Shown piece by piece: positions 27,328 to 46,866 of a DNA stretch of 64,000 nt. Every line of letters starts with the position of its first letter. Position 1 is the first letter of the stretch. Under the pieces are notes generated by a model that worked only from the letters and a program-made list of their open reading frames with translations, had not been told where the DNA came from and searched no databases. The DNA lies in the NCBI RefSeq assembly GCF_003326015.1, contig NZ_CP023860.1, forward strand, positions 930,001-994,000, read 5' to 3'. The position numbers and the translations under genes were made by a program. This DNA is from Candidatus Thioglobus sp. NP1 (lineage in GTDB: Bacteria > Pseudomonadota > Gammaproteobacteria > PS1 > Pseudothioglobaceae).

Positions 27328-27336
27328 TATACATAA
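27278..27336 (+). repeat. Left attachment-site repeat (59 bp)
   Basis: The 59 bp from the tRNA anticodon stem through the CCA end and 9 bp beyond recur without mismatch at 43156-43214. This is the direct repeat expected from site-specific integration into a tRNA gene. Sequence diverges right after 27336 (G here, A in the other copy). Confidence 0.93.
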
Positions 27337-27375: not shown

Positions 27376-27404
27376 CTTAGCATTTCGTGCAAATTTCGTG
27401 CACT
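27376..27404 (+). repeat. Terminal 29-bp repeat with two TTTCGTGCA boxes (left)
   Basis: Exact copy of 42995-43023. Inside it TTTCGTGCA occurs twice, at 27383-27391 and 27394-27402, 11 bp apart (one helical turn). Short direct repeats flanking the crossover core, between attachment site and integrase, are the usual layout of integrase arm-type binding sites; binding itself is inferred. Confidence 0.75.
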
Positions 27405-28431: not shown

Positions 28432-28445
28432 ATTATAATCCTATT

Positions 28446-30728: not shown

Positions 30729-30729
30729 T

Positions 30730-31341
30730 ATGAATACATTTAATTTAAATGAAATAGCTAATCTAAAAGATGCAGATTACTCAAAAATCAGCTCAAGAGT
30801 CAAGGCTTTTTGCTCTACATACGAGACTGCCCAAATACTCACTGAAATTGTTAAGGACGAGGTAGGTCATGTAATTTTTAAGGCGCATGCTGTGGTCGAT
30901 GGCACGATTAGAGGTACAGCTCATGCTCACGAAGTTGAAGGCTCGAGCAACATAAATAATTCATCTCATTATGAGGCCTGTGAGACCATTGCTGTAGGTC
31001 GCGCATTGGCCTTTATAGGCTACTCAAAAGCTGATAGCTTGGCTTCATATGAGGAGATTGAAAGCTCTAAATTACAGGAGTTTAAAGTCGCTTTGCACAA
31101 GGAGACTTTAAAAGTTGCAACAACTTACATGTCTTTAGCATTTAAAAATGCAATTGATGAGGAAAATGAAGAGAAAATAGTAGAGTGTCAAAAAGATATG
31201 CGAGGTAATGACCCATTACGTTCAGCAGTTAATGCTTCACTTAGTGATGAGCAAAAAGAATTTCTGATTGAACGTCAGAAACAAATGACAGCAGATAGAA
31301 AAGCTAAATCTGAACAAAAAAATGCACTATGGAAAAACTAA
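30730..31341 (+). CDS. Phage-type GRAL-motif protein, function unknown
   Basis: 203-aa soluble protein. The segment GTAHAHEVEGSSNIN (residues 62-76) followed by YEACETIAVGRALAFIG (81-97) is a motif pair I associate with phage proteins encoded near ssDNA-annealing or recombination genes; I cannot assign a biochemical function from it. The C-terminal third is charged and helical (KEFLIERQKQMTADRKAK). ATG 30730 chosen because GGAGGG at 30719-30724 precedes it and homology-like features begin after it; the longer open frame upstream is inside the YwqK gene. Second gene of a two-gene operon ended by an inverted repeat at 31370. Confidence 0.65.
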   Translation: MNTFNLNEIANLKDADYSKISSRVKAFCSTYETAQILTEIVKDEVGHVIFKAHAVVDGTIRGTAHAHEVEGSSNINNSSHYEACETIAVGRALAFIGYSKADSLASYEEIESSKLQEFKVALHKETLKVATTYMSLAFKNAIDEENEEKIVECQKDMRGNDPLRSAVNASLSDEQKEFLIERQKQMTADRKAKSEQKNALWKN

Positions 31342-31485: not shown

Positions 31486-31581
31486 TTAATAGTTGAAGGC
31501 TTAGTTCCCCTTAAGAACCAGGTATTTGTTCCATATTGTGTACCTTAGGATTTCCCTTAAAACACTAAAAAGGAGGTAGGT

Positions 31582-32091
31582 ATGTCATACCAAAACCAAT
31601 CTAATAAAGACCACTTAGATATCATCATAGGACCACCCGGACAGGAAGAGCTTATTGATTCAGTTCATTGCTATGCAGAAAAGCACAATATGAACATTGA
31701 TGAGGCTTGGTCTGAGTGCATACGAAACACAGCTGATAACCTTATGAAGCCAAATGAAAATGGCTTTAATAGCTTTACCAATCTATTCACTGATGTTCTA
31801 GGTGAGGAGGTGTATGTGGAGGATTACTTCTTAAGCCACTACTTTGGAGCTTTTTCCACTAATGGAATGCTAATGGCTAGAATCAAAAACCCTGAGGAAA
31901 GACATAAGTACACTGCACCCGCTTTAAACTTTCAATCCAAGAATTTACTTGATGGAGAACGCAATCCCATTGATATTAGAAGATTTGACTCTACTAAGAG
32001 ACAACAAATCCAATATCTAATCACTTATTTATTGGATGTGAGCTGGATTCATGTCACAATTTCATATGGTTTCGTTACAATGAAAAATTAG
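31582..32091 (+). CDS. Hypothetical soluble protein, cassette gene 1
   Basis: 169-aa protein that I do not recognise. No signal peptide or membrane segment. The N-terminal half is acidic (DSVHCYAEKHNMNIDEAWSE, GEEVYVEDYFLSHYFGAFS), with a central basic loop (RIKNPEERHKYTAP) and a C-terminal hydrophobic helix-strand (YLITYLLDVSWIHVTISYG). It has one of the best ribosome sites in the window, AGGAGGT (31571-31577) four bases before ATG, so strong expression is expected. First gene of an isolated two-gene unit with its own promoter and terminator. Confidence 0.7.
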   Translation: MSYQNQSNKDHLDIIIGPPGQEELIDSVHCYAEKHNMNIDEAWSECIRNTADNLMKPNENGFNSFTNLFTDVLGEEVYVEDYFLSHYFGAFSTNGMLMARIKNPEERHKYTAPALNFQSKNLLDGERNPIDIRRFDSTKRQQIQYLITYLLDVSWIHVTISYGFVTMKN

Positions 32092-32100
32092 GGTTAAATA

Positions 32101-32367
32101 ATGCAAATCGATAAAAACACACAAGCAGATTTTTATTTTTATTTAGACATGGTTAAAGATAGTCCTGATTCACGTCCACGTGGTGCAGAAGCTGAATGGT
32201 TTTGTAATCTTTCGGAAGCTGACAGACAAGTAGAAATTCAAAGACACATCGACAGCGTTAACGAGATGACTGAGTTTCTAGAAGCTGAACATAAAGCTGA
32301 CGTTAAATACTTACAATCGTTTGGAGACTTTACTGAAAAGCAATTATCTTATTGGGATTGTATTTAA
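32101..32367 (+). CDS. Small hypothetical protein, cassette gene 2
   Basis: 88-aa acidic, helical protein (AEWFCNLSEADRQVEIQRHIDSVNEMTEFLEAEHKADVKYL) 9 bp downstream of the preceding gene and upstream of a strong terminator. No signal peptide, no recognised family. Small acidic proteins next to a larger unknown protein on mobile elements are often inhibitors or antitoxin-like partners or DNA mimics, but nothing in the sequence proves any of these. Confidence 0.65.
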   Translation: MQIDKNTQADFYFYLDMVKDSPDSRPRGAEAEWFCNLSEADRQVEIQRHIDSVNEMTEFLEAEHKADVKYLQSFGDFTEKQLSYWDCI

Positions 32368-32433: not shown

Positions 32434-32538
32434 GCAGATGTTCTAGGGCATAAACAAATAAGTGTTACTAAACGTTATGCTCATCTATGTATTGAACATG
32501 AATCAAGTCCTATTAATCGGGTGATGGGTAGTATTTAG
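32434..32538 (+). pseudogene. Integrase C-terminal fragment (internal remnant)
   Basis: 35 codons including the stop that match integrase residues 303-336: ADVLGHKQISVTKRYAHLC and then INRVMGSI. No start and no upstream homology, so it is a broken 3' end. Both its last residues (GSI, where the intact integrase has GYI) and the roughly 20 bp after the stop (TCAGAATAAACTACAAT) match the remnant at 43331 rather than the intact gene. It marks a junction where an older element was joined or deleted. Confidence 0.85.
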
Positions 32539-32564
32539 TTTCAGAATAAACTACAATACTTTTT

Positions 32565-33044
32565 ATGAGAAGTATATATGACACAGCACTAGGAGTTATT
32601 AATGAAATACTCCTAGAAGAGCTAAATGAGATTCATCAAAACATATCATTTATACAAAAGGAACTGCCTGAAATTGATTTATCAGACGATAGTGCAGATA
32701 TAAAAAAACTTAAACAATTCATAGAAGATTCTTTAACTAGGTTTAATAAAAAAGTTTTCTGGAATATTAAACCTGAATTAGAGCTTATCCTTAGTATGAT
32801 AGAAAAAGATGAAAGCATTGAAACCCATGTTATTCAAAAAAAGATTGCAGCTACTGTGATTAGAATGAAGAGTGAATTTCTAGTTATGGATGCAATAGCC
32901 AAAAAACTAATAGATTCACCTGATGATAGTATTTCAGATAACTGTAAACTATTAAGAACTCTTTATATCGAATCACTTACAAATATGCATAACTGTAATC
33001 ATGCAATATTTGATGCGATTGATAAATTAACTGATGCTAGCTAA
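32565..33044 (+). CDS. Helical hypothetical protein upstream of restriction enzyme
   Basis: 159-aa, nearly all-helical soluble protein (LGVINEILLEELNEIHQNIS, KLKQFIEDSLTRFNKKVF, ESLTNMHNCNHAIFDAIDKL). No DNA-binding motif or nuclease motif that I can see. Its end overlaps the restriction endonuclease start by 11 bp, so translation is coupled and it should belong to the restriction-modification module, perhaps as a specificity, stability or control partner. No ribosome site precedes the ATG; a TACAAT box ends 7 nt upstream, which would fit a leaderless transcript arising from the tail of the integrase remnant. Confidence 0.62.
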   Translation: MRSIYDTALGVINEILLEELNEIHQNISFIQKELPEIDLSDDSADIKKLKQFIEDSLTRFNKKVFWNIKPELELILSMIEKDESIETHVIQKKIAATVIRMKSEFLVMDAIAKKLIDSPDDSISDNCKLLRTLYIESLTNMHNCNHAIFDAIDKLTDAS

Positions 33045-34221
33045 TTCAGACACTAATATTGAAGATGTTGCATCTATTATTTTGGGCCATAACTATGATG
33101 TAGCCTTTCTAGTTCCAACTGAAACCGGTTTGAAAAAATCAATTCTTGATGCACATCAATCTATTAAGGCTCTATTTCAAAGAGAACAGTTTCATGATTA
33201 TGAAAACCAAAGACAAGGGGATATTTATAAGGCAACCGCTCATTACATTACCAGTAATGAAATCTTTGATAAAACTGTTAGCTTGTATAGACCAAATACC
33301 AAAAAAGGTGACCCTCGAATATGGATATCTGGACTTAATAGGCTTGCAAAAGCAGGTAATTTAATTGCTCTTGTTATAGCTAATCAAGACTTATATATCA
33401 TTAACTGTTCAGATAAAAAAAGTCTTAATTACGCTCTTGAGACAGGGTTACCTAAAGTTAAATTAGATACAAGTGAAGTGGCTAATGAACTTCTAAATAA
33501 GCTTATAAAAGTGTCACACAAAGGCTTTATTAGAACTATTAAGGCTGGAGATACTGGCATTGGAATGACTATTGAGTCTGAACTCGGAATTATTGCAAAT
33601 GCCAGCAAAAAACCAGATTACAAGGGAATTGAACTTAAATCTACTCGTGTAGGTCAAAAACTTTCTCAAAAGAATAGAAGTACTCTCTTTTCTTGCGTTC
33701 CAGAGTGGTCTTTAAGTCCATCAGCACCTAAAGAAAACCTTTTACAAAAGCGAGGATATTTTGACTCAGATGGGCTATTAGCACTTAGACACACAATAAG
33801 TGGTTTGAAGCCTAATTCGCTTGGTTTATTTTTTGATTTAGATTATGTCAATGGTTATCTAAGACAAATGTTTAAAGATGTTAATTTAAATGACTTTAAT
33901 GCGGAGCATGATACTACTTGGCTAATTTCAGAGCTTAAGAAGCGTCTTCTAGATAAACATAAAGAAACCTTTTGGATTAAAGCAGTTTGTCAAGGAGATG
34001 GTATAAATGAAGAGTTTCATTACGTTGAAGCTGAGCACACTATGAATCCATATATATCTAAATTTGAAACTCTAATAGAAACAGGCATTATTACGATGGA
34101 TTATACGATGCATATCAAAGAATCAGGAAAGTGGAGGGACCATGGTTTTTTATTTAAACTTAAACCTAATCAATTGCCTGCATTATTTCCAGAGGCAATA
34201 AAGCACGACCTTAGGTATTAA
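33034..34221 (+). CDS. MvaI/BcnI-family type II restriction endonuclease
   Basis: 395-aa endonuclease. The family block is clear: GDTGIGMTIESELGI at residues 172-186 and then PDYKGIELKSTR at 194-205, with the metal site Asp195, Glu200 and Lys202 (PD-ExK type). Characterised members cut CCWGG (MvaI) or CCSGG (BcnI); the exact site here is not predictable. MvaI and BcnI are near 240 aa, so this protein has an extra N-terminal domain of about 165 residues. It converges with the methyltransferase gene (3-bp spacer), forming a compact restriction-modification system carried by the element. Confidence 0.87.
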   Translation: MLANSDTNIEDVASIILGHNYDVAFLVPTETGLKKSILDAHQSIKALFQREQFHDYENQRQGDIYKATAHYITSNEIFDKTVSLYRPNTKKGDPRIWISGLNRLAKAGNLIALVIANQDLYIINCSDKKSLNYALETGLPKVKLDTSEVANELLNKLIKVSHKGFIRTIKAGDTGIGMTIESELGIIANASKKPDYKGIELKSTRVGQKLSQKNRSTLFSCVPEWSLSPSAPKENLLQKRGYFDSDGLLALRHTISGLKPNSLGLFFDLDYVNGYLRQMFKDVNLNDFNAEHDTTWLISELKKRLLDKHKETFWIKAVCQGDGINEEFHYVEAEHTMNPYISKFETLIETGIITMDYTMHIKESGKWRDHGFLFKLKPNQLPALFPEAIKHDLRY

Positions 34222-34224
34222 GCT

Positions 34225-35499
34225 CTACTTAGTAAGTAATTGATTGAAGTGCTTGCCGACCTCAAAAGCAAGCTTTACAGGAACTGCATTTCCGATTTGA
34301 GTGTACTTAGGAACTTCTCTTTCAAAGTTTGATTCACGAGGGTTACCAGCTCTTCTGATGCCTCCTGTAGTTCTTTTCCCAGCAAACTCATACCAATCAG
34401 GGAACGCTTGCAATCTTGCCCATTCTCGCACTGTAGGACAGCGAGCCTGTGAATAGTGAACAAAATCATCAGGTAAAGAAGTTACAGTAATCGTTGGACC
34501 TTTTTTACCCCATTTTCTGGGTAGTAAACGCTGTGCAAATTTCTTAGTCTTTAGATGCTCAGGTATTTGCCCCTTGTTCTTAATCATATGGCTGAATCTT
34601 TCAACGACTTTATCTGAATGCTTGCTGTATTCCTGCTCAGTCAATACATGCCCTTTTTTCATTAATAAGCCCGAATGGTTGTTTGTACGATAATCTTCTT
34701 GAAGGTTATTAGATGGTTTCTTAGAATAGGCAACTGATTCCCCACCATATTCAAAGCCCTCATCAATTAAGTCCGACAAGATATCTTCGAGATTAGGGTA
34801 ATCATTAGTAGGCTCTGGCAGAAACCCTCCTTCTAATGCATCCATTGTTGAATTTGATTTAACTTTGATATCTTTCCTAATGCCAACCACCAGAACTCTA
34901 GGTCTATTTTGAGCAACACCATAATCCTTAGCCTTTACCAGTTTAAACTTAACTGTATAGTTTTTAAGATTCTGAAAGGTTTTTAAAACATCCTTAAAGA
35001 TTTCTCCTTGTTGACCTTCCTTTGTCCATCTTGCAGTCAATAACCCTTCAACATTCTCAAAGAGAAACATCTTGGGTTTAACTTGATTAACTACAAAAGC
35101 CATATCTTCATAAAGATGATTCGAAGGCAATTGTTTTTTATCAACAGAATAAGACCTTCTTATGCCTATTCCAGAGAAGCCTTGACAAGGAGGACCTCCA
35201 GCAACTAGGTCAACAGAGTTTTCTCTAAAATCACGCTTAAAATCCTTTTGAAAGCTATCCAAAAGATTCTTAAAGTAGTTTTCCTCTAGAACAACTTTTT
35301 TAATATCAGATGAATTGTATTTCTTACGTAAATGTGGATACTCTTGGTCCCTGTTGATTAGGTAAGTTTCTAATGCATCTGAGTTTAATTCATTAACGTA
35401 AAGAGGATAAAAGCCAGATTGCTCTAAACCTAATGAAAGCCCACCACATCCAGCAAATAAATCAATAAAAGTTAGTTTATTATCGAGATTTTCATTCAT
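34225..35499 (-). CDS. DNA (cytosine-5) methyltransferase
   Basis: 424-aa C5 methylase that should protect the element and host from the convergent endonuclease. Ordered motifs: I FIDLFAGCGGLSLG (residues 11-24), IV GGPPCQGFSG with catalytic Cys105, VI ENV (148-150), VIII QNRPR (197-201), a target-recognition region after about residue 210, IX CPTVREWARLQAF, and X QIGNAVPVKLA. MvaI and BcnI themselves are paired with N4-type enzymes, so pairing with a C5 enzyme (as in EcoRII/Dcm) is of note. All motifs are intact. Confidence 0.93.
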   Translation of the reverse strand: MNENLDNKLTFIDLFAGCGGLSLGLEQSGFYPLYVNELNSDALETYLINRDQEYPHLRKKYNSSDIKKVVLEENYFKNLLDSFQKDFKRDFRENSVDLVAGGPPCQGFSGIGIRRSYSVDKKQLPSNHLYEDMAFVVNQVKPKMFLFENVEGLLTARWTKEGQQGEIFKDVLKTFQNLKNYTVKFKLVKAKDYGVAQNRPRVLVVGIRKDIKVKSNSTMDALEGGFLPEPTNDYPNLEDILSDLIDEGFEYGGESVAYSKKPSNNLQEDYRTNNHSGLLMKKGHVLTEQEYSKHSDKVVERFSHMIKNKGQIPEHLKTKKFAQRLLPRKWGKKGPTITVTSLPDDFVHYSQARCPTVREWARLQAFPDWYEFAGKRTTGGIRRAGNPRESNFEREVPKYTQIGNAVPVKLAFEVGKHFNQLLTK

Positions 35500-35659: not shown

Positions 35660-35902
35660 TTTTGTTGGGAATCTGCAATTCCAAATATAGACTTAATAAT
35701 ATTTATAGTTTGGTCCATCTTCCTTTTCGCAGGCTTTATTCTTGTTTGGGGTCCAAAGTATCGTAAGCTTGCAATTTTCCTTCTAATTATAGGTCTAGCT
35801 CCATACATTAACTTGGGTTATGTACTCTATTCAATCATAGATGCGTGTGAATTTGAAGTGTGGGAATATTGTTTTCAAGATATTCTCTGGGATACCCCTT
35901 GA
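35660..35902 (+). pseudogene. Small membrane protein, no standard start codon (RKLG family)
   Basis: An 80-codon open stretch with clear coding character but no in-frame ATG, GTG or TTG near its 5' end. It reads IDLIIFIVWSIFLFAGF, then PKYRKLAIFLLIIGLAP, a second helix, and ends WDTP. It is a paralogue of the next gene and of the one at 39417 (shared RKL-x4-LII-x2-x-P). It either starts at a rare codon such as ATT 35678 or lost its start. Its stop overlaps the TTG of the next gene. The 160 bp upstream, to the methyltransferase, holds only a TATGGT/ACCATA inverted pair. Confidence 0.45.
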
Positions 35903-36123
35903 TTAACTTTCTCAATTCAATTCCGCTATATCCAGGATGGTTATTTCTATTCTTTTTTGGACTATTTTTCATAAAGCTTACAAAGCATCGTAAGCTAGGT
36001 AAAGCCATCCTTATCATATTCTCTATCCCTATTTTGTTTATCATCGCCTCAATGTTTTTTGGGATATGGTTAATGGAGACTAACCCAGGAGTTTTTCCAG
36101 GTGGGGAGGCTTATACACCTTGA
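35899..36123 (+). CDS. Small membrane protein, RKLG-LIIFSIP family
   Basis: About 74 aa with two hydrophobic helices (PGWLFLFFFGLFFIKL and ILIIFSIPILFIIASMFFGIWL) flanking the conserved basic turn TKHRKLGKA. I place the start at TTG 35899, inside the previous stop (TTGA), because the same TTGATTAA junction recurs at the next gene; a GTG at 35860 would add 13 residues. The tail ETNPGVFPGGEAYTP is likely periplasmic or cytoplasmic and non-conserved. Function unknown. Confidence 0.5.
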   Translation: MINFLNSIPLYPGWLFLFFFGLFFIKLTKHRKLGKAILIIFSIPILFIIASMFFGIWLMETNPGVFPGGEAYTP

Positions 36124-36290
36124 TTAATTCATTATTATTTTTAGGCTTTATATGGCTTGCAGTGCCTCAAGAAAATAAGAGGGTAGCTGATAATCAATAT
36201 CTTTTAATAATCATATTATTTGTCTTACTAATCTTGTTAAGCATCTTTATGAGTTTTAATTTAGCTAATTGTGGTGGAGACTGCTTATGA
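36120..36290 (+). CDS. Tiny membrane protein, TTG start
   Basis: 56 codons starting at TTG 36120, which overlaps the previous stop. The start is supported by GGGGAGG (36103-36109) ten bases upstream. Two hydrophobic helices (SLLFLGFIWLAVP and YLLIIILFVLLILLSIFMSF) are joined by the polar PQENKRVADNQ; the tail NCGGDCL has two cysteines. The stop overlaps the ATG of the next gene (ATGA). Not recognised. Confidence 0.5.
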   Translation: MINSLLFLGFIWLAVPQENKRVADNQYLLIIILFVLLILLSIFMSFNLANCGGDCL

Positions 36291-36907
36291 AAAAAATACT
36301 ATTAATTATTACAATTCTACTTACCTCATTGTCTTATGCTAAAGATGATAGTTATCTAATAGATGATAGCCTTGCAATGGCTCGACAGGGTGAATTTGTC
36401 CGTGCATCAAACCTAATAGTTGATTTAGCTAATAATGGCAATCCCAAAGCACAGTATGTGCTTTCAATGTACTTCAGAGACCCTAACGCTCTGAATATTC
36501 CAGAAGTAGGAGAAATGTGGTTAATGAGAGCCGCTGAAAATAACAATGCCAAAGCTCAATATGACTTAGGTTGGCGACTAGCTGCTGGTTGGAAGAATGA
36601 CTCAGTAGAAGATATTGTGGAGATGATATATTGGTTTGAAAGGGCAACCTTTAATGGAAGCGAAGATGCTTATGCGAACTTGGCAACATTGTATGAGAAC
36701 GAATTCAGAGATGTATTGGCGGAAATGGAAGTTGCTGCTAATGATGGCAATGCTATGGCTCAGTTTAATTTAGGGTGGATAAATGCTAGAGGGCTTTATA
36801 GTTCAGATGGATTAATGCAAGATATAGATGTTGCTAAAGATTGGTTTGAAAAGTCTGCAAAGCTAGGATTCAAAGATGCAGTAGAAGTGCTCGAGAAGAA
36901 CTTTTAA
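36287..36907 (+). CDS. Secreted Sel1-repeat protein
   Basis: 206-aa exported protein of the Sel1-like (TPR-related) repeat type. Signal peptide MKKILLIITILLTSLSYA, then repeats with the family spacing: ANNGNPKAQYVLSMYF (residues 49-63), AENNNAKAQYDLGWRLAAG (83-101), NGSEDAYANLATLYE and ANDGNAMAQFNLGWINARG, ending with AKDWFEKSAKLGFKDA. ATG 36287 overlaps the preceding stop. Sel1 proteins typically mediate protein-protein contacts in the periplasm; the partner may be one of the small membrane proteins around it. Confidence 0.78.
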   Translation: MKKILLIITILLTSLSYAKDDSYLIDDSLAMARQGEFVRASNLIVDLANNGNPKAQYVLSMYFRDPNALNIPEVGEMWLMRAAENNNAKAQYDLGWRLAAGWKNDSVEDIVEMIYWFERATFNGSEDAYANLATLYENEFRDVLAEMEVAANDGNAMAQFNLGWINARGLYSSDGLMQDIDVAKDWFEKSAKLGFKDAVEVLEKNF

Positions 36908-36910
36908 ATA

Positions 36911-37624
36911 ATGAATGCTTCAGAAAAAAATGCAATTGAAAAAAAATACTGGGTTACCTGGGGGCTTACTGCCGGACTAGGAATTTTTATTCTTTTGATA
37001 CAGCTAGGTATTTACAATTACCGCCCAATATGCTCACCAGTGGTTGGCTGTGGTTATGAAGTTCCGTTAGGTTTAACAATTCTTATTTCAATCTTATTAA
37101 TAATTACTCGAGTATTTAGAAAGAATAAGTTAAAACTAATAACGCCTTTAATGCTCGTGGTCTTTTCAGTTCTTATTCTTATCTTTACTTTTTCTTCAGA
37201 AAAGAGGTTTAATGAAAGTATGACTGCACTTGCTAAAAACATTCAAGAGTTATGTATTACAAATGAACAGTGTCCAATAAAATTATCTACCGCCTTTGAT
37301 GATGTAAGGCTAGTTAAAGCTGACACCATATTTACTCTAAAAGGCGAAGAAGATGAAATTATAGAAAATAGAACTAACGTTATTGCCGCAGGATATATTA
37401 GCTCAAGTTCTTATAGATATAAGTTAAAGCCTTACTATGGCTTTATGTCCTTTGACTATAAAGCAACTGGAAGTAACTTTAAACTTGAGTGGGTATCAGG
37501 TGAGGCAAAGGTTATAAGAGCTAGAGTTACTAATGATGAGAGCCCCAAACTTCTTTTAGAGAACTACTGTGACCCTGGCGGGGAGACTTGCTATGAAAAT
37601 GAAATTGGAACATCCTATTTATAA
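36911..37624 (+). CDS. Hypothetical membrane protein with periplasmic-type domain
   Basis: 237 aa. Three hydrophobic helices in the first 95 residues (WGLTAGLGIFILLIQLGIY, VPLGLTILISILLIITRVF, LITPLMLVVFSVLILIFTF), then a soluble domain of about 140 residues with cysteine pairs (ELCITNEQCP and YCDPGGETCYE) that would suit an oxidising compartment. Unrecognised family. It follows the Sel1 gene after 3 bp, in the same apparent operon. Confidence 0.6.
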   Translation: MNASEKNAIEKKYWVTWGLTAGLGIFILLIQLGIYNYRPICSPVVGCGYEVPLGLTILISILLIITRVFRKNKLKLITPLMLVVFSVLILIFTFSSEKRFNESMTALAKNIQELCITNEQCPIKLSTAFDDVRLVKADTIFTLKGEEDEIIENRTNVIAAGYISSSSYRYKLKPYYGFMSFDYKATGSNFKLEWVSGEAKVIRARVTNDESPKLLLENYCDPGGETCYENEIGTSYL

Positions 37625-37637
37625 GAAAGGGCTTTAA

Positions 37638-37877
37638 ATGAAAAAAATACTTAAAGTCATATTTATTATCCTCTTAGGACTTTTTGCTCTGCAATGGATA
37701 GTAATGAGTATATTTGCAAATGCAGAGTTAGAGGAATTAATAAGGCAGGGTTACCTAGAAGAGGATTACACCAAACAAGATGTAGTAAAACTGTGCAATC
37801 CTCAAACTGATATTGAAAGAGAGTTTAGTAAAGGAGCTAATGCTATGTTTAGTTGTGTGACAAAGGGAAACTGGTAA
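37638..37877 (+). CDS. Small anchored protein, GY-T-KD-C family (copy 1)
   Basis: 79 aa: an N-terminal membrane helix (ILKVIFIILLGLFALQWIVM) followed by a soluble tail LIRQGYLEEDYTKQDVVKLC and a second Cys near the end (MFSCVTKGNW). The tail pattern LI-x2-GY-x4-[YF]T-x2-D-x2-K-x-C recurs in the next gene, so they are tandem paralogues. Its stop directly abuts the next ATG. Function unknown. Confidence 0.6.
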   Translation: MKKILKVIFIILLGLFALQWIVMSIFANAELEELIRQGYLEEDYTKQDVVKLCNPQTDIEREFSKGANAMFSCVTKGNW

Positions 37878-38135
37878 ATGTCTATTTGGTTTTTCTCAAT
37901 AGCTGATTCCATCATTAACGTAGTTGTTAGCTTCTTTGCTTTAATAATTATGCTCTGGACTTTTACTATGGCTGGTATATCGCAAAATGAGACTTATAAG
38001 TTACAAACTCAGTATTTAATTGATGAAGGTTATATTAATACTAACTTCACTGATAAGGACTTAGCTAAAGCTTGTCATTATTACTATAACGACTTTGAAA
38101 AAGACCTTACAGATGTTTGTTTTTGGTATCTGTAA
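37878..38135 (+). CDS. Small anchored protein, GY-T-KD-C family (copy 2)
   Basis: 85 aa with one or two hydrophobic segments (SIINVVVSFFALIIMLWTFTM) and then the tail LIDEGYINTNFTDKDLAKAC, ending DVCFWYL. Two cysteines line up with those of copy 1, suggesting a conserved disulfide. It begins at the base after the stop of copy 1. Unknown function; the duplication suggests the tail is the functional part. Confidence 0.6.
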   Translation: MSIWFFSIADSIINVVVSFFALIIMLWTFTMAGISQNETYKLQTQYLIDEGYINTNFTDKDLAKACHYYYNDFEKDLTDVCFWYL

Positions 38136-38176
38136 TAAAGAATTCTTATTAGTTCAAATTGAAATATAATAAAGTT

Positions 38177-38548
38177 ATGAAAAAAATAATATTACTATCA
38201 ATTACGTTATTAATTTCTTACTCAGCTTCAATTCAAGCAGAAGCTATGAAATGCTATACAAAAAATGAAGTTGGTGAAATGTCATATGGTGAGGATTACA
38301 TATTTGAAAGAACTAATAAGCTAGACAAATCAAAACCTTCAATACTTGACTTTGATGAGTTGAAGATAATAAATGCAGATACTGGCAAGTTTTATAGTAT
38401 GACTAAAGAAAGCAATAACCATTTCAAGTCTGGCAACTATCACTACCTGACAAATAAGAGAAGGTCTGTTGTAGTTGAAATAAGTTTTAATGAAGCCACT
38501 AAAGATGACCTTGTCTTTAGCAAAATATTATTGTGCGAATCCTTTTAA
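38177..38548 (+). CDS. Secreted hypothetical protein
   Basis: 123-aa protein with a signal peptide (MKKIILLSITLLISYSASIQA) and a mature, polar, beta-looking domain with two cysteines (AMKCYTKNEV near the N terminus and ILLCESF at the end). ATG 38177 chosen; TATAAT at 38165-38170 ends 6 nt before it, the same geometry as three other genes of the element, so a leaderless transcript is likely. No family recognised. Confidence 0.58.
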   Translation: MKKIILLSITLLISYSASIQAEAMKCYTKNEVGEMSYGEDYIFERTNKLDKSKPSILDFDELKIINADTGKFYSMTKESNNHFKSGNYHYLTNKRRSVVVEISFNEATKDDLVFSKILLCESF

Positions 38549-38561
38549 AGCTCCCTAAATA

Positions 38562-39401
38562 ATGATTTTTTCAATCGTCATAGCACTTCTAATTTTCTGG
38601 TTTATTATTAATTTCCCTGACATTATTGGGAATCTAGTTATTATATTTCTTACTGGTGTTGGAATAATTATTGCCATTGGTGTCGTAGTTCTTGTTTTTG
38701 TATATTCAGACCTAGAGTTTTCTGATTTAACTGAGTTTTTTAAAATTGTTATTTTTGGTGCTATTTGCCTTCTAATAATTGGATTTATTTTTAATGGACT
38801 GAATAGAATCCTTACTAGAATTACTGGTCTTTGGAGGAAGTTTTATGACATTAAGACAATTCTTAAATTCCTTATATTGCAATTTATCATTCCAGGGATA
38901 ACTGATAAGCAAAAGATAAAAAAAATAAAAAAAATAAATAGGTTAGTTGCTTATGGAGATGAAAAAAAACAATTAGATAACGAAAAAAAATACAAGAAAA
39001 AAATAGAAGAAGAGGAAAAGAAATTAGAAGAAGAAAATATAAGATTAGATAATTTATATTTGAAGTGCGGTAAGAATTTTTATGAGTTGTCTAATTTAAT
39101 AGATAAGGAATTGTCAGTTTATATTGATTCTGATTATATTAATTTAGAATATATAGAGCCAACTAGAGAAAATATAAATGGATATATTCATATAAATACT
39201 AAAATAAAAAAATCTATTATCAAAGTTATTTGCAGGGCTCGTTTATCTAAATATAATGATTCTTTTAGAACTTATAAAATCATTTCTAGTCAAGGGAAGA
39301 ATGGTGGCTTCGAAGCAGATAGCATATCATCAGCATCAAAAGGTACTAAAAAAATCCTCTTAAATTATTTTAAATTACATCCAGAAGAGATTGGTCAATA
39401 A
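38562..39401 (+). CDS. Membrane protein with cytoplasmic coiled coil
   Basis: 279 aa. Four hydrophobic helices in the first 115 residues, then a strongly charged coiled coil (EKKQLDNEKKYKKKIEEEEKKLEEENIRL cut around residues 134-162) and a C-terminal globular domain of about 110 residues (YINLEYIEPTRENINGYIHI, KVICRARLSKYNDSF). The architecture suggests a membrane anchor holding a coiled-coil sensor or scaffold. Not recognised. It follows the secreted gene after 13 bp. The poly-A runs coding the Lys stretch are frameshift-prone but the frame is intact. Confidence 0.58.
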   Translation: MIFSIVIALLIFWFIINFPDIIGNLVIIFLTGVGIIIAIGVVVLVFVYSDLEFSDLTEFFKIVIFGAICLLIIGFIFNGLNRILTRITGLWRKFYDIKTILKFLILQFIIPGITDKQKIKKIKKINRLVAYGDEKKQLDNEKKYKKKIEEEEKKLEEENIRLDNLYLKCGKNFYELSNLIDKELSVYIDSDYINLEYIEPTRENINGYIHINTKIKKSIIKVICRARLSKYNDSFRTYKIISSQGKNGGFEADSISSASKGTKKILLNYFKLHPEEIGQ

Positions 39402-39416
39402 ATCAATGGTAAATAA

Positions 39417-39626
39417 GTGCTTTTAATAATCTTCATAGCCCTTTGGGCATTCAGCCTCTTTTACGGCATCAGCTTAATACGCACTGACCGACGTAAGCTA
39501 GGTATTAGGTACTTAATCATTTTCTCAATACCATTAGGTATATTTGCTTTAGCATTTTGGTTAATGGACTATGAGTACCTTAACTGTATGCTTAATGGCT
39601 CATCAGAGATGATGGAGAACTGTTAA
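39417..39626 (+). CDS. Small membrane protein, RKLG-LIIFSIP family (third copy)
   Basis: 69 aa, GTG start. Two helices (LLIIFIALWAFSLFYGISLI and YLIIFSIPLGIFALAFWLM) bracket the turn RTDRRKLGIR, matching the proteins at 35660 and 35899 in order and spacing. Ends in a short polar tail with two cysteines (NCMLNGSSEMMENC). The recurrence of this family on both sides of the Sel1/GY genes suggests duplication within the cluster. Confidence 0.55.
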   Translation: MLLIIFIALWAFSLFYGISLIRTDRRKLGIRYLIIFSIPLGIFALAFWLMDYEYLNCMLNGSSEMMENC

Positions 39627-39631
39627 ATATT

Positions 39632-40288
39632 ATGAAAAAATATATCTATCTGTGTGCATTTTTATTCTCAATTAATTCTAGTATGGCGGGATGCAAAATC
39701 GATAAAGATGGTATTAATCGCTGCACTGATAATTGGCTAGAATCTTTTTTTAATAGCCCTAGCAAAAATAATTCTAACAGTAGCGAGTGTAAGATTGACC
39801 AATATGGAATTAATCGATGCTCTAGTGAATCTTACAACGATACACAAAATTCATTCGTCCAATCCTCTGAAGCATTGCTTACTAAAGGATACAATAAAGC
39901 ACTTGCTGGAAACTATGGAGAAGCATACAGAATACTTGAGCCATTAGCCTCACAGGGCTATGCTGAAGCACAATTTAACTTAGGTATGATGTTTCAAAAT
40001 GGAGGAAGTGGACTTCAAAAGAACAATGCTAGCTCGGCATATTGGTTTAACTTAGCTGCAAATCAAGGTGACCAGAGTTCACAATTTGAATTAGCAGGCA
40101 TTTATTACAGAGGACTAGGGGTAAAAAAAGACTTAAAAATAGCAAAGTATTGGGCTAAATTAGCTTCACAGGGAAGCAATCCAATAATTGCGAGTCGCTC
40201 AAGAGAGTTTTTAAAGAATCAGATGTCCTGGTGGGAAAAACAAAAGCTAGGAGCCTCTTCAATCTTTGGTATCTTTAGTGGAAATTAG
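39632..40288 (+). CDS. Secreted Sel1-repeat protein with duplicated CKID-GINRC motif
   Basis: 218 aa. Signal peptide MKKYIYLCAFLFSINSSMAG; the following Cys could be read as a weak lipobox (MAGC). The mature N terminus carries the motif CKIDKDGINRC twice (second copy CKIDQYGINRC) separated by a Ser/Asn-rich linker, then Sel1 repeats YGEAYRILEPLASQGYAEAQFNLG and ANQGDQSSQFELAGIYYRGLG with AKYWAKLASQG. Because both Cys of the motif are repeated, a small disulfide-closed loop is more likely than lipidation. Second Sel1 protein in the element. Confidence 0.75.
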   Translation: MKKYIYLCAFLFSINSSMAGCKIDKDGINRCTDNWLESFFNSPSKNNSNSSECKIDQYGINRCSSESYNDTQNSFVQSSEALLTKGYNKALAGNYGEAYRILEPLASQGYAEAQFNLGMMFQNGGSGLQKNNASSAYWFNLAANQGDQSSQFELAGIYYRGLGVKKDLKIAKYWAKLASQGSNPIIASRSREFLKNQMSWWEKQKLGASSIFGIFSGN

Positions 40289-40901
40289 TATGAAAAAACT
40301 ACTCCTATACCAAGTAATATATTCTTAGGTCGAAATAAAAGAATCTCTTATGGTCGATGACCATACGATTGTTTAACTAAGACTCACTATGATTAACTTA
40401 GAATTGGCTACTATTAATATTAAACTTTAAGTTAACTAAGCTGCTATACCTAGAACCACTCAGATAAAGATACATTGAACCAATATATAGTAGTATATAT
40501 AAATGATAATCAGTAACTTTGTATATATTCTAGGAATTAAATATTCATTTTTAGATATGAATTCTTAGAATATTCTAAAGATTATTTTTATGTATTTATA
40601 AACTATAAATTATTCAACTTTAGAGTGCTTCTAAGAGCGTCTAAAAGATATTCATATTATACCATATATTAGTGCTTTTGTCCATGGAGAATTGGTGTTT
40701 TTTACTAATAAATATTACTTAAATAGTTTTAATATTAGTATTAAAATCAATGACTTATATTATCACTAGAATTAGCCATATTTATAGCCTCTCAGAGCTC
40801 CAAATTCACCATCCTAGAGTACTTAAAATACTTAGAAAGTAATGAACTTATTTAGTACTAAAAGTGGGTCAAATTAACTGATAGTAAGGTATAGTTCAAT
40901 A
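40289..40901. other. 613-bp gene-free stretch
   Basis: I see no coding frame here. It is very AT-rich with many short CTTAG/TTAGA motifs. The first bases (40290-40328) repeat the beginning of a signal-peptide gene, MKKLLL, then stop after 12 codons, so this looks like a decayed copy of a secreted-protein gene. A 17-bp palindrome TATGGTC-GAT-GACCATA lies at 40349-40365. The 3' end provides a TATAGT box for the next gene. Confidence 0.5.
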
Positions 40902-41291
40902 ATGGGATTTATTAGAATAATTTGTAATATTGGTGCATTATTAATTAATGGGTATTTTTTATATTTTTACTTTTTTGATAATATAAACCTTGAGGGTTTT
41001 GTATTTTATTTAGTGGCATTTTTATTTCTTATATTTCCCTGGATAGCTATTCATTTATTCTTTAAATTCATTGAATTTTTGAAGCCTAAAGTTCAAAGTC
41101 AGATTCAAGATGTCCAGCACTCTAAGTCAGTTAAAGATAAAAACTACTTAGTAGCCTTTTCTGAGGTAGAAGAAAACAATGTGCAAAATAAGGAGCTTTG
41201 GGCAAAAGCTTTTGCTCAATGTGAAGGTGATAGAGAAAAGCAAAAATCAATCTATGTTGAATTGAGAACAAAAGAGCTTTCTAAAAGGTAA
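40902..41291 (+). CDS. Hypothetical membrane protein
   Basis: 129 aa with two membrane helices (IICNIGALLINGYFLYFYFF and FVFYLVAFLFLIFPWIAIHLFF) and a cytoplasmic C-terminal half that is helical and charged (ELWAKAFAQCEGDREKQKS). Upstream, TATAGT (40890-40895) ends 6 nt before the ATG, so the mRNA is probably leaderless. Its last base is the first base of the next ATG, so the two are coupled. Unknown family. Confidence 0.6.
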   Translation: MGFIRIICNIGALLINGYFLYFYFFDNINLEGFVFYLVAFLFLIFPWIAIHLFFKFIEFLKPKVQSQIQDVQHSKSVKDKNYLVAFSEVEENNVQNKELWAKAFAQCEGDREKQKSIYVELRTKELSKR

Positions 41292-42334
41292 TGTTTGGTC
41301 CTTTAGAAATAATTATCATAATTGCTCTTCCAATTCTAATTGTTATATCCCTTGCCTCAAGAGCTGAAAAAGAATATAAAGTATTTAAACATCATACAGA
41401 TGGATATAAAGCTGTTAAAGTTGGCTTAGCTTGGGTTGCTGGTACTATTTTTATGCCTATATGGTTTCTATTTAGGGGCTTATGGTCATATTTCTTCTTG
41501 TACTTGGTTTTGCTAGTAATTGCTGTTTTAGTAGAAAATGAGCTATATGGTGAATTTGGCTCGATTGATTTCAATAATGCTTCAGATACTGAGTGGATTT
41601 GGTTAGGTATTCAAATTATAGTTGCCTTCATACCATTATTTAAAGGCAATGACTGGACAGCTAAAAATCTAATTAAGAAAGGTTATTTATTCCAAGATTC
41701 AGTTCATGCAGTTAGTAAAAAGAATGCTATTGCAATAGTTCTAGAAAATAAAATTGATTCTAGTTACAACAAAAATGATACTCAGATAAGGCCATCAAAA
41801 AGGATGATTAGAAAGAAAGTAGTCGTCAAATCAAAGTCATCTAAGAAATTAAAGAGGAATGATAAAGCAGCAAAAGAATTTGTTATGCAAACTATTCGAG
41901 ACCTTGATTATGTAGTCATAAGAGAGTCACTAAATATATATATTAAGTCAGAAGAAAATGCTAAAAACCTTTATGCATTCCTCTATGGCTTGGCTTTATT
42001 TACTTGGAGTATCCATAAAGTTAAATTGAAGTATGAGGATTTTGAGACTGTTTTTGATATAGTTGATAGTGGACTAAATGACTCTGGAATAGACATCCCA
42101 AGGCATCTTGACCTTGATGAAGATTATGATGAAATTAGTTCAGGATTTGTTGATATTTATACTGAAAGTATCGGATGGGATAAAATTAATTCTGAAGAGG
42201 ATTTAATAAATTCAGTAAACAAAGATTTTCAGTCAATTGGAATATATTACGCTAGAGCCTATAGCAGAGATGAAAATGATTTAAAAAAACTGTATTTTGT
42301 AAAACTTGTAAATACTATTTCAGAAAATACATAG
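41291..42334 (+). CDS. DUF2628-like membrane protein with C-terminal domain
   Basis: 347 aa. Residues 40-66 (KAVKVGLAWVAGTIFMPIWFLFRGLW) and 118-132 (FKGNDWTAKNLIKKGY) match the general plan of DUF2628 proteins: an amphipathic VKxGxxW segment, two or three helices, and a GNxW...KxGY turn. An unrelated soluble domain of about 200 residues follows (basic linker SKKLKRNDKAAKEF, then acidic LDLDEDYDEISSGFVDI). The upstream gene ends in its start codon. A shorter DUF2628-like protein occurs just past the right attachment site (43567). Role unknown. Confidence 0.58.
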   Translation: MFGPLEIIIIIALPILIVISLASRAEKEYKVFKHHTDGYKAVKVGLAWVAGTIFMPIWFLFRGLWSYFFLYLVLLVIAVLVENELYGEFGSIDFNNASDTEWIWLGIQIIVAFIPLFKGNDWTAKNLIKKGYLFQDSVHAVSKKNAIAIVLENKIDSSYNKNDTQIRPSKRMIRKKVVVKSKSSKKLKRNDKAAKEFVMQTIRDLDYVVIRESLNIYIKSEENAKNLYAFLYGLALFTWSIHKVKLKYEDFETVFDIVDSGLNDSGIDIPRHLDLDEDYDEISSGFVDIYTESIGWDKINSEEDLINSVNKDFQSIGIYYARAYSRDENDLKKLYFVKLVNTISENT

Positions 42335-42343
42335 GAGTAATTA

Positions 42344-42505
42344 ATGGAAATCACTAATATATTCGCAGGATTAATTATAGGAGTTTCTTTTATGTGTTTT
42401 TGTTCTGCTTTTTTTGATAAAAAAGATAATAGGATGAGTATGTTATGGGGTGGATTATTTAGTCTAACGATTATTGTTATGGCAATAGAAAATATTGGTG
42501 CATAG
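42344..42505 (+). CDS. Tiny two-helix membrane protein
   Basis: 53-aa frame: MEITNIFAGLIIGVSFMCF, a polar turn FDKKDNRMS, then LWGGLFSLTIIVMAIENIG. ATG 42344 has AGGAG (42333-42337) six bases upstream, overlapping the end of the previous gene, which is good support for such a short gene. Unknown function. Confidence 0.5.
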   Translation: MEITNIFAGLIIGVSFMCFCSAFFDKKDNRMSMLWGGLFSLTIIVMAIENIGA

Positions 42506-42568
42506 TATAGCTTTTAAGTTATCTCTTTTAACAAAGTACAGAAGCTCAAAATGAAATATAATAAGCCT

Positions 42569-42901
42569 ATGAAATTATCACTTAAATTAATAATACTACC
42601 CATTTTTTTCCTCTTGCAGAGTTGCAGTCATCCAGTTGGAAGTGCAATGTGGCACAAAAAAGCTCCTAATGCAGATATAACCAATTACTATAAAGAAATG
42701 TGTCTAGGTTTTGGGTATAAAACTGAAACTCCTGAATTGATACAATGCATACAAACTGAAATTGGAAATGGAATGGATAGGGCTGATGCTCAAGTAAGTC
42801 AAATGATTAAATCGTTACAGAATATAGACCGACCAAGAAATAAAGTTAAAACAAATTGTACAACTTGGGGTAATGATATTAATTGTACATCCACATATTA
42901 G
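42569..42901 (+). CDS. Putative lipoprotein
   Basis: 110 aa. Lipoprotein signal MKLSLKLIILPIFFLLQSC with lipobox LQSC at residues 16-19, so the mature protein should be lipid-anchored at Cys19. The rest has four more cysteines (EMCLGFG, LIQCIQ, TNCTTW, INCTST), giving two possible disulfides. TATAAT (42557-42562) ends 6 nt before ATG 42569. Last gene before the right end of the element. Unknown family. Confidence 0.65.
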   Translation: MKLSLKLIILPIFFLLQSCSHPVGSAMWHKKAPNADITNYYKEMCLGFGYKTETPELIQCIQTEIGNGMDRADAQVSQMIKSLQNIDRPRNKVKTNCTTWGNDINCTSTY

Positions 42902-42994: not shown

Positions 42995-43023
42995 CTTAGC
43001 ATTTCGTGCAAATTTCGTGCACT
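42995..43023 (+). repeat. Terminal 29-bp repeat with two TTTCGTGCA boxes (right)
   Basis: Identical to 27376-27404, with the same two TTTCGTGCA boxes 11 bp apart, in the same orientation. It lies 132 bp inside the right attachment repeat. Together with the left copy it would flank the core on both sides in an excised circle, as integrase arm sites do. Confidence 0.75.
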
Positions 43024-43155: not shown

Positions 43156-43214
43156 TCGGACTTTTAATCCGCTGGTCGAGCGTTCAAGTCGCTCACGCCC
43201 CACCATATACATAA
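43156..43214 (+). repeat. Right attachment-site repeat (tRNA-Lys 3' end)
   Basis: Exact 59-bp copy of 27278-27336 including the 3' half of tRNA-Lys with CCA. The sequence before it is not a tRNA 5' half, so this is not a second tRNA gene but the far end of the element. Confidence 0.93.
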
Positions 43215-43280: not shown

Positions 43281-43330
43281 GTTTTGCTAGAATGGATTAA
43301 CCGCTCCCTCACACATCAAAAAATTTGTAC

Positions 43331-43507
43331 TTTAGATCCCACGACCTTCGTCATTCCTGTGCATCTTATTTGGCTCAATCTGGAGCATCTCTCTTGGAGA
43401 TAGCAGATGTTCTAGGGCATAAACAGATTAGTGTGACTAAGCGTTATGCCCACCTCTGCATCGGACATAAATCAAATCTTATTAATCGAGTGATGGGTAG
43501 TATTTAG
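43331..43507 (+). pseudogene. Integrase C-terminal remnant (older element)
   Basis: 58 codons plus stop matching integrase residues 279-336, including the His-x-x-Arg motif HDLRHSCASYLAQSG, the VLGHKQ His and nucleophile Tyr in TKRYAHLC. The homology to the intact gene begins abruptly at about 43329, and most nucleotide differences are silent, so the ancestor was under selection before truncation. Too little is left to be a recombinase. It lies just outside the current element, where the integrase of a previous occupant of the tRNA site would be. Confidence 0.88.
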
Positions 43508-45240: not shown

Positions 45241-46866
45241 ATGAATTATTTGCCAAAATCTTTGGCTACAGGTTTCGTATTGGTTATGTTTGCTTCAACA
45301 TCTGTATTTGCAGCAACTCATCCAGTAACCGGCGAAACTCTGGCTGATGATCAGACATTTACATACAGTTTGTTGGATGAATTTACTTCAGTAGATCCAC
45401 AGATTGTTGAGGATGTATCTGGATCTGATATTGTTCGCGACCTTTTTGAAGGTCTTATGAATCAAGATGCTGATGGTAATCTTGTTCCTGGTGTTGCAAC
45501 TGGTTTTACTACTAATGATGCTAAAGATGTCTATACTTTTACACTTAGAGATGACGCAAAGTGGTCTGATGGGAACGCAGTTACAGCGCATGATTTTGTC
45601 TATGCATGGCAGCGTCTTGCTGATCCTGCTACTGCTTCACCTTATTCATGGTTTGCTGAAATTATGGCCCTTGAAAATGTTGGAGCTGTAATGTCTGGAG
45701 ATGCTTCACCAGATACATTGGGTGTTACTGCGATTGACAATCATACTTTAGAGGTTAGACTGACTTCATCATTGCCGTATTTTGCTGCAATGACAACTCA
45801 TGCTTCTACGTATCCTGCTCCTGAATGGAGTGTAAGTGTTTGGGGTAATGATTGGACTAAGCCAGAAAACATCATTTCTAATGGTGCTTATGTTCTTACA
45901 GAGCATATTCCTAATGAGCGTTCAGTTCGTGAGCGTAACCCTATGTATTGGAATAATGATGCTACAATCCTAGAAAAGGTAGTTGCCTTAGTAATTAATG
46001 ATGAGAACGTTGACTTTACTCGTTATTTAGCTGGTGAGTTAGATAAGGGAACTGTTCCTTCAGGACAATTTATTCGCCTGAAGCAGGACTATCCCAATCA
46101 AGCAACATCTTTCCCAAGGCTTTGTAACTACTATATGACATTTAACTTGTCTGATAGTGGTCCTGAAGCATTTAAGGATGTAAGAGTTCGTCAAGCGCTT
46201 GCTTACGCTATAGATCGTTCAGTAATAACTGAAAAGATTTTACAAGCTGGACAAATTAATGCCTTTACCTTTACTCCAGGTGCTACAGCAGGCTTTGAAG
46301 TGCCACCAGTTGCATTTGGTCAAATGTCTCAAGATGAGCGTGAAGCTAAAGCAAAAGGCCTTCTAGCTGATGCGGGTTATGGACCAAGTAATCCACTAAG
46401 TTTTGAGTACATTTACAATACTTCTGAAGGTCATAAGAAGATTGCGATTGCAGCTCAGCAAATGTGGAAAGAGACTCTTGGGGCTAAGGTTACACTTGCC
46501 AATCAGGAATGGAAAACATTCTTGAAGACTCGTGGTGCTCAAGGTTTTGAGCTTGCACGTGGTGCTTGGTGTGGTGACTACAATGAGGCTTCAACGTTCT
46601 TAGACTTACTTACTTCACCGTCTGGTTATAACGATGGTAAGTTTAATAATTCTGAGGTAGATAGTTTAATGTTAGATGCTAGAACTTTAGATGATGCATC
46701 AGCAAACTACACACGTGTTGAAGAGATCTTGGCAAATGAAATGCCAGTGATTCCTATTTATCACTACGCTGGTGTATTTATGCTTAAGACTAACGTCAAA
46801 GGCTGGCCTTATGACAATGTAGAACAGAACTGGTATTCTCGTAACTTATATAAAGTTGCTAATTAA
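45241..46866 (+). CDS. oppA: Oligopeptide ABC transporter substrate-binding protein
   Basis: 541-aa periplasmic binding protein of the SBP_bac_5 family (OppA/MppA type). Signal peptide in the first 24 residues (ending SVFAATHP). Family landmarks: DPQIVEDVSGSDIVRDLFEGL, the solute-binding signature WSDGNAVTAHDFVYAWQRL, VRVRQALAYAIDR-like FKDVRVRQALAYAID, and VIPIYHYAGVFM. AAGGAG (45229-45234) precedes ATG and TATAAT (45209-45214) may be the -10. A strong terminator separates it from the permeases, as usual when binding protein is made in excess. Confidence 0.93.
   Translation: MNYLPKSLATGFVLVMFASTSVFAATHPVTGETLADDQTFTYSLLDEFTSVDPQIVEDVSGSDIVRDLFEGLMNQDADGNLVPGVATGFTTNDAKDVYTFTLRDDAKWSDGNAVTAHDFVYAWQRLADPATASPYSWFAEIMALENVGAVMSGDASPDTLGVTAIDNHTLEVRLTSSLPYFAAMTTHASTYPAPEWSVSVWGNDWTKPENIISNGAYVLTEHIPNERSVRERNPMYWNNDATILEKVVALVINDENVDFTRYLAGELDKGTVPSGQFIRLKQDYPNQATSFPRLCNYYMTFNLSDSGPEAFKDVRVRQALAYAIDRSVITEKILQAGQINAFTFTPGATAGFEVPPVAFGQMSQDEREAKAKGLLADAGYGPSNPLSFEYIYNTSEGHKKIAIAAQQMWKETLGAKVTLANQEWKTFLKTRGAQGFELARGAWCGDYNEASTFLDLLTSPSGYNDGKFNNSEVDSLMLDARTLDDASANYTRVEEILANEMPVIPIYHYAGVFMLKTNVKGWPYDNVEQNWYSRNLYKVAN

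Follow-up and report, generated by a model that had tools for sequence, protein, structure and literature searches.

What is an array of about 15 genes for small membrane and exported proteins doing at one end of a genomic island in Candidatus Thioglobus sp. NP1? The array lies at positions 35660-42901 of the window, by which we mean the whole stretch of 64,000 nucleotides that was analysed (G000:C1:930001-994000, on contig NZ_CP023860.1), in a single-contig genome of 1,689,404 bases. We consider the array to be probably a defence-type payload and not one machine. More specifically, and with a probability of roughly 0.45, we propose that the stretch is the cargo end of an integrative element at a tRNA-Lys gene, and that its envelope-protein genes are separately exchangeable, each gene or small group acting alone as a defence-type trait. 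Recombination between islands would be the source of the differing combinations.

The array and the element that carries it

The first-pass annotation, made from the sequence letters, had described a same-strand run of small genes for membrane and exported products. This description stands: 15 frames (g1-g15) follow one another on the + strand, of which 12 are transmembrane (TM)-like by hydropathy and 12 hold at least two cysteines (Cys); g4, g8 and g11, the three that the hydropathy scan leaves without a TM-like segment, start, by eye, like signal peptides. With expectation values (E) for their relatives, the frames are:

35660-35902, + strand: g1, F1-family protein with two TM segments; no in-frame ATG, GTG or TTG
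35860-36123, + strand: g2, F1-family protein with two TM segments; 87-88% relative in L070
36120-36290, + strand: g3, small TM protein with C-terminal end NCGGDCL; relative in L105, E 3e-14
36287-36907, + strand: g4, exported Sel1-repeat protein (PF08238); 86% relatives in L070 and L104
36911-37624, + strand: g5, protein with three TM segments and a cysteine-rich remainder; 31% relative in G019 (L018/L099)
37638-37877, + strand: g6, F2-family protein with one TM segment and a Cys pair; L061 E 3e-5, weakly L109 E 0.017
37878-38135, + strand: g7, TM protein of family F2 with a Cys pair; L104 relative at E 6e-12
38177-38548, + strand: g8, exported protein with two Cys
38562-39401, + strand: g9, protein with several TM segments and a long stretch of charged residues
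39417-39626, + strand: g10, F1-family protein with two TM segments and a C-terminal Cys pair; relatives in L102 (87%), L104 (68%) and L061
39632-40288, + strand: g11, exported Sel1-repeat protein with N-terminal cysteines (PF08238)
40902-41291, + strand: g12, TM protein whose short C-terminal tail is common to other island proteins; L032 E 3e-6, L070 E 2e-4
41291-42334, + strand: g13, DUF2628-like N-terminal domain and a different C-terminal domain
42344-42505, + strand: g14, 53-amino-acid (aa) protein with two TM segments
42569-42901, + strand: g15, probable lipoprotein (LLQSC lipobox, by eye)

As listed, g1, g2 and g10 form one family (F1), and g6 and g7 another (F2). From g1 to g15 the gaps are, in order, -43, -4, -4, 3, 13, 0, 41, 13, 15, 5, 613, -1, 9 and 63 bp; the spacing of 0-15 bp first described holds for most of them, but the one gap of 613 bp leaves the genes in two blocks. 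This gap (40289-40901) opens with a truncated 'MKKLLLYQVIYS' start (by eye), possibly the remains of an exported-protein gene. For g1, an ATT or ATA start or a decayed copy is possible. In the g4 relatives L070 9483-10112 and L104 10950-11579, too, no ATG, GTG or TTG stands ahead of the signal-like stretch, and an ATT or coupled start is possible.

All 15 products were scanned against Pfam, 11 against PHROGs, eight against NCBIfam and eight (g4, g5, g7, g8, g9, g11, g12 and g13) against PADLOC. The two Sel1 proteins named at first pass are confirmed: against PF08238, g4 scores 31.6 bits (E 2e-7) and g11 54.2 bits (E 1.6e-14), with a curated cut-off of 30.7, and both match phrog_8741, whose function is not known (E 9e-18 and 5e-16). 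Other Sel1 matches of the same genome lie at 381 kb and 1322 kb. The statement that no product had a recognised family thus needs correction for these two, and also for the N-terminal part of g13, which resembles DUF2628 (PF10947, E 0.004, below cut-off; phrog_4915, E 1e-6), has a chromosomal relative in the genus and finds relatives in 14 of the 29 genus genomes, own included. The C-terminal domain of g13 was found in 1 of 369 class-drawn genomes, namely its own, and has a relative in G037, another genus; no relative of g13 was found in genome contigs. Among the products scanned, the remainder show no convincing family in Pfam, PADLOC, PHROGs or NCBIfam. Sub-threshold Pfam and PHROG matches to membrane families were set aside as composition, and NCBIfam MerG matches of g4 and g11 lie far below cut-off. 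Viral contigs hold no relatives of g5, g13 or the upstream island gene 31582-32088, phage records gave no match for g5, g9 or g13 (tblastn) or for 31582-32088, and plasmid records gave none for g9, the only array protein tried there. Predicted structures were poor (mean predicted local distance difference test 43 for g5 and 55 for g9).

The first-pass annotation had also placed the array on a mobile element beside restriction-modification (R-M) genes, which is borne out by attachment (att) repeats, an integrase, a nuclease and a methylase. A tRNA gene stands at one end, its 59-bp 3' part is repeated at the other, and a tyrosine integrase lies inside:

27252-27327, + strand: tRNA-Lys(TTT), the integration site (ARAGORN; Rfam tRNA)
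27278-27336, + strand: attL core, 59 bp identical to attR
27376-27404, + strand: left arm-type repeat, TTTCGTGCA twice (27383/27394), probable integrase binding site
27421-28431, + strand: tyrosine integrase (phrog_1 integrase, E 3e-65)
32434-32566, + strand: 3' remnant of a second integrase, 5' of the R-M genes and the array
33034-34221, + strand: MvaI/BcnI-family restriction endonuclease (PF15515, E 3.5e-55; PADLOC REase_II)
34225-35499, - strand: cytosine-5 (C5) DNA methyltransferase (PADLOC MTase_II, E 1.7e-78)
42995-43023, + strand: right arm-type repeat, TTTCGTGCA twice (43002/43013)
43156-43214, + strand: attR core, the 3' part of tRNA-Lys (Rfam)
43329-43505: integrase 3' remnant

Because there are two integrase 3' remnants (32434-32566 and 43329-43505), a layered island is suggested. 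Comparable elements exist in the genus: that of G026 (L032) has two att copies, each with 2 mismatches to the window core, and TTTCGTGCA at both ends, and L030 likewise has two att copies. Relatives of the integrase, at 57-89% identity, lie beside several tRNA genes, i.e., Lys (L030, L032), His (L062 with L074; L067), Pro (L068), Phe (L071), Asn (L065, L069) and Arg (L101); against viral contigs the integrase gave four distant matches, the best at 36% identity. The gene rpsA is whole or nearly whole in 23 of the 28 other genus genomes (the G009 copy is broken by stops), and tRNA-Lys stands behind it in 22 of these 23 loci, the exception (L049) ending after 1,127 bases. The tRNA-Lys site is empty in L031, L037 and L047, where a relative of the flank gene 45241-46866 lies within 160 bp. 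In L030 and L032 it is occupied by integrase elements, whereas many remaining genus contigs end too early for occupancy to be judged.

Proteins with MORN_2-type repeats (28446-29204 and 30105-30728 in the window; also in L030, L032 and L070) are recurring cargo of such elements. A further element protein, matching phrog_4756, occurs at L032 8658-10139 and L070 7622-8917; 249 phage records, most of them from Rheinheimera and Vibrio phages, contain distant relatives of the L032 copy. For the window frame 30724-31338, the matches are phrog_11717 and a protein of a Pelagibacter phage.

Selection on the frames and relatives on other islands

Composition alone is no proof that the frames are coding, in view of controls with shadow open reading frames (ORFs) of core genes: 10 of 39 such ORFs also have a TM-like segment by hydropathy, and in codon usage the array genes are not separable from them (rank 0.62-0.95 of that null). 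It is homology and selection that lift the array frames above chance. Protein relatives outside the window were found for g1-g7 and g10-g13. As for selection, whose absence the first-pass annotation had named as a danger to its proposal, it is purifying wherever measurable. By Nei-Gojobori dN/dS between homologous sequences, g2, g4 and g10 are kept by strong purifying selection, with values of 0.10 for g2 (against L070), 0.10 and 0.09 for g4 (against L070 and L104) and 0.11 for g10 (against L102; synonymous sites are saturated against L104). For comparison, 31582-32088 gives 0.08, 32101-32364 gives 0.32, the integrase 0.09 and ihfB 0.16.

Of the 83 family genomes, 9 were found to contain F1 members, and each of these 9 belongs to the own genus (29 genomes, own included). 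Among 369 class-drawn genomes there were matches in 3, own included; the other two are weak (E 4.5e-5 and 8e-4) and were not counted as members. F2 was found in 3 of the 83 family genomes (own included, one weak). Among 115 genomes, own included, g5 has one full-length relative besides itself, with five of six cysteines conserved; the sole match in an alignment against genome contigs was CABXNH010000031.1, taken as the G019 contig. Weak g5 matches (E 3e-4 to 9e-4, ~85 aa), six from other genomes and one more from G019, were dropped as TM-composition, because the matched frame in L014, the only one inspected, reads by eye like a CDP-alcohol phosphotransferase.

The array families travel together, and not as a fixed set. 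Their recurrence in company on other islands of the genus dispels the concern, also raised at first pass, that they might never be found together elsewhere. In L104 (G026), relatives of g4, g7 and g10 follow one another in this order, the latter two separated by two other membrane genes. Next come genes related to 31582-32088 and to 32101-32364, then a MutH-like restriction gene together with a C5 methylase. L061 (G028) holds a Sel1 gene, an F1 gene, further small TM genes and F2, then type I R-M genes; this genome carries the g10 and g6 types. L070 (G006) combines g4 and two F1 genes with another Sel1 protein, MORN proteins and a PDC-S02-like nuclease. Smaller subsets are found in L105 (G015; one F1 gene plus g3), L103 (G008; a pair of F1 genes, with type I R-M genes 0.4 kb from the first), L102 (G024; at a contig end, a relative of g10) and L109 (G009; an F2 relative and no F1), and a further F1 gene of the own genome lies at 536.9 kb.

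R-M genes thus stand beside three other F1 clusters (type I in L061 and L103, type II in L104), and a candidate defence nuclease is near that of L070; these neighbours were called with PADLOC on ten chosen ORFs only, in L061, L103, L104, L070 and L066. By eye, the F1 loci L103, L104, L105 and L108 (four genomes) adjoin an apparent sortase and a target gene, perhaps a second island hotspot.

A repeat module and a riboswitch

An upstream motif is common to g8, g15, the MORN gene at 28446 and unrelated island genes elsewhere. Its traces in the window are:

38148-38179, + strand: right half of the module, TATAAT-N6-ATG, of g8; no mismatch to the 29-nt pattern, ATG included
42543-42571, + strand: diverged module of g15; 2 mismatches to the 29-nt pattern
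28420-28448: module copy of the MORN gene at 28446; 3 mismatches to the 29-nt pattern
43306-43333, + strand: left half of the module, running into the integrase remnant; exact 15-mer at 43306-43320 (13 of 100 shuffles also matched at that laxity), the rest by eye

With at most 3 mismatches, the pattern AGTTCAAnTTGAnnTATAATn6ATG gave 18 matches across 56 loci that overlap in part (726,101 bases) and 0 in one randomised copy, a count that is not an independent test because the pattern was drawn from those loci. The core pattern without ATG, at most 2 mismatches, gave 68 matches in 21 of the 29 genus genomes against 0 in a reversed control; this count includes the pattern-source genomes and, of the window's three copies, only that of g8. 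When ATG was not demanded, it still stood exactly six bases after the -10 box in 56 of 76 copies (at most 3 mismatches). The repeat is ~75 bp long; conservation spans roughly -32 to +50 relative to the core start (75 contexts), beyond which it drops to background. An ATG at 5-7 bases was seen for 58 genes, of which 12 are stubs of less than 20 aa. In the other 46 module-preceded genes, a hydrophobic N-terminus was seen 34 times, versus 28 of 125 controls (window core plus five loci); the calculated p of 1.5e-9 is an underestimate, because gene families recur and the counts are not independent. The 25 exported-like ORFs with the motif fall into 9 families by their mature parts.

Both flanks could be compared in 2211 pairs of copies: 5 match on both sides, 49 only upstream and 89 only downstream, the last figure being inflated by one recurrent exported family and including a number of short matches. 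The clearest joint is that of L126 (G016) with the own copy at 534,626, where 859 upstream bases agree at 95% and no significant downstream match follows. This own locus (527-547 kb) shows gene gain and loss against G006, G010 and G016, and includes the F1 gene. The left half alone, at most 5 mismatches, occurs 99 times in 1,021,838 bases (0 in a shuffle), 46 times without the promoter half. In 35 of 35 cases neighbouring left halves share one orientation; the loci overlap in part, the motif guided the choice of some of them, and genes that run in one direction would favour the same outcome. Rfam had no match in six module loci, and viral contigs had none to the module pattern. A generic promoter scan showed no excess (35 found, 39.4 expected); terminator-like sites numbered 7 against 3.0 expected.

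We read the module as a predicted leaderless, promoter-bearing joint of exchangeable genes, with a plain dispersed promoter repeat as the alternative. It is possible, if doubtful, that the genus has a cassette system of its own without an integron, in which a repeat of 30-75 bp with a -35/-10 promoter and a start codon six bases past the -10 box would form one-way arrays and serve as the exchange joint of mostly exported or small membrane genes, which would arrive downstream of a leaderless promoter already in place, and that the window array would share this pool, with diverged copies before g8 and g15. Because the window copies are diverged, the link between module and array is only partial. 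Should the module truly serve as a cassette joint, it would represent a novel means of gene capture and expression.

Upstream of the R-M genes, a SAM-V riboswitch (S-adenosylmethionine, SAM; 31511-31578) stands directly 5' of a 169-aa gene of no known function (31582-32091; searched as 31582-32088), and it does so in 4 of 4 collected relatives (window; L104 9632-9699; L066 15512-15579; L109 13301-13366). C5 DNA methylase genes are near this gene in the window, L104 and, by BLAST similarity, L066, and not visibly in L109. Possibly, a SAM-sensing control acts here on an island gene near SAM-using methylases.

Proposed envelope defence, its rivals and known systems

What, then, might the array do? 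It brings together F1 hairpins of two TM segments (g1, g2, g10) and F2 TM anchors with a Cys pair (g6, g7); the exported Sel1-repeat proteins g4 and g11, the probable lipoprotein g15 and other products make up the rest. Beside the R-M genes, these genes or small groups of them would each act independently at the cell envelope, perhaps as an obstacle to phage adsorption or DNA entry, or as a shield of the envelope against a competitor's agent. Envelope-level defence is our best guess: R-M genes are recurrent neighbours, the products are predicted to lie at the envelope, and g5 weakly matches SLATT membrane-effector models in two libraries (PADLOC E 0.0012; NCBIfam E 0.012). The proposal as a whole also draws on the anatomy of the element, the reshuffled families on other islands, the purifying selection on g2, g4 and g10, and the envelope bias of genes preceded by the module, which stands before g8 and g15 too.

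Several points weigh against this proposal. Among the eight products scanned, PADLOC gave no convincing match (besides g5, g8 reached E 0.0014 with a methylase model and g11 E 0.011); no array member convincingly matches a defence model, and the functional part is therefore lightly held. The R-M neighbourhood is weak evidence for defence, because islands gather both R-M genes and other cargo. Relatives of g3, g4, g7 and g12 were sought only in loci collected for F1, F2, integrase or other matches, which biases the count of co-location, and the g5 relative in G019 stands without other array families, by eye between guaA and prepilin-like genes. Constraint on g3 is weaker (dN/dS 0.35 against L105, over 53 codons). 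For g8, g9, g14 and g15 no supporting relatives were found, the comparison set for g8, g14 and g15 being the collected island loci only.

The main rival, which we consider unlikely, is a heterogeneous polyimmunity locus in which each small protein neutralises one toxin delivered by a competitor. According to PMC3482391, polyimmunity loci consist of close, co-oriented genes without toxins between them, have variable content and nearby recombinases, and may include two-TM immunity proteins. The array is similarly a tandem of close, co-oriented, unrelated small genes that vary among relatives near recombinases; no toxin family was found among the 15 products (Pfam), and MORN_2 and Sel1 repeat proteins lie on the same element. 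However, the array differs from the loci of that account in lacking a known immunity family: no Imm, SUKH or SuFu superfamily was found by Pfam in 15 of 15 products or by NCBIfam in 8 of 15. Also, PAAR proteins were found in 0 of the 29 genus genomes, of which 11 are at least 90% complete, other toxin delivery systems not having been searched.

Rather improbable is a short-lived cargo without consistent function, kept by drift. The genes are lineage-restricted and patchy, four have no relatives, g1 has no standard start, and the 613-bp gap opens with a truncated gene start (by eye), all of which would suit drift; against it, dN/dS is ~0.1 for g2, g4 and g10 between clearly diverged copies.

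The first-pass annotation preferred a single envelope complex with several subunits, in which anchors would be joined by periplasmic repeat proteins and a membrane coiled coil; this reading now has little probability. The tight spacing of g1-g11, with overlaps, and the envelope products agree with it. But obligate complexes keep their subunits and the array genes do not: relatives occur in differing subsets and orders, and only subsets are kept together in L061, L070, L104 and L105, in a biased choice of loci. A single complex is therefore disfavoured, and further points against it are the predicted promoters before g8 and g15, the 613-bp break, and g9, the proposed coiled coil, of which the 29 genus genomes hold only the own copy (the 28 others, many incomplete, gave no match).

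It is also quite improbable that the genes serve the element itself, in entry exclusion, transfer or helper-phage parasitism, since, although such elements carry phage-related genes (the phrog_4756 and phrog_11717 matches) and phrog_8741 and phrog_4915, neither with a known function, are matched by g4 and g11 and by g13, no phage-record match was found for g5, g9 or g13, and no integrase match is listed near the own-genome F1 gene at 536.9 kb.

A lineage of streamlined ocean bacteria thus seems to maintain, on mobile islands, a private and traded stock of small envelope proteins. Since these proteins stand repeatedly beside restriction systems, the role of tiny island proteins could be tested with few genes. 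In one open literature collection, neither the array nor the module was found described, nor was Thioglobus together with a genomic island and an integrase.

Among known systems, the Sel1-repeat proteins (PF08238) include g4 and g11, which pass the cut-off and differ as island copies. The module is to be compared with the gene-cassette arrays of integrons. As in these, it stands between genes that differ among relatives, and neighbouring copies all point one way. In contrast to them, some of its genes are large or on the other strand, and its hairpin is not significant (z -1.56 for one variant, +0.70 for the other), so that no attC-like site is claimed; the integrase matches of G000 are the element integrase, the two remnants and two XerC/XerD-like proteins (no IntI model was used).

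For the element as a whole, the nearest comparison is with the tRNA-bounded islands (tycheposons) of streamlined aquatic bacteria and with an additive island of Methylophilaceae with tRNA-Lys end repeats, as described in PMC10872708. The cargo differs from that described there, with small envelope proteins beside R-M genes and no recognisable metabolic genes, and the likeness is one of layout: a border tRNA, a tyrosine recombinase, repeats of the tRNA end and much cargo of unknown function.

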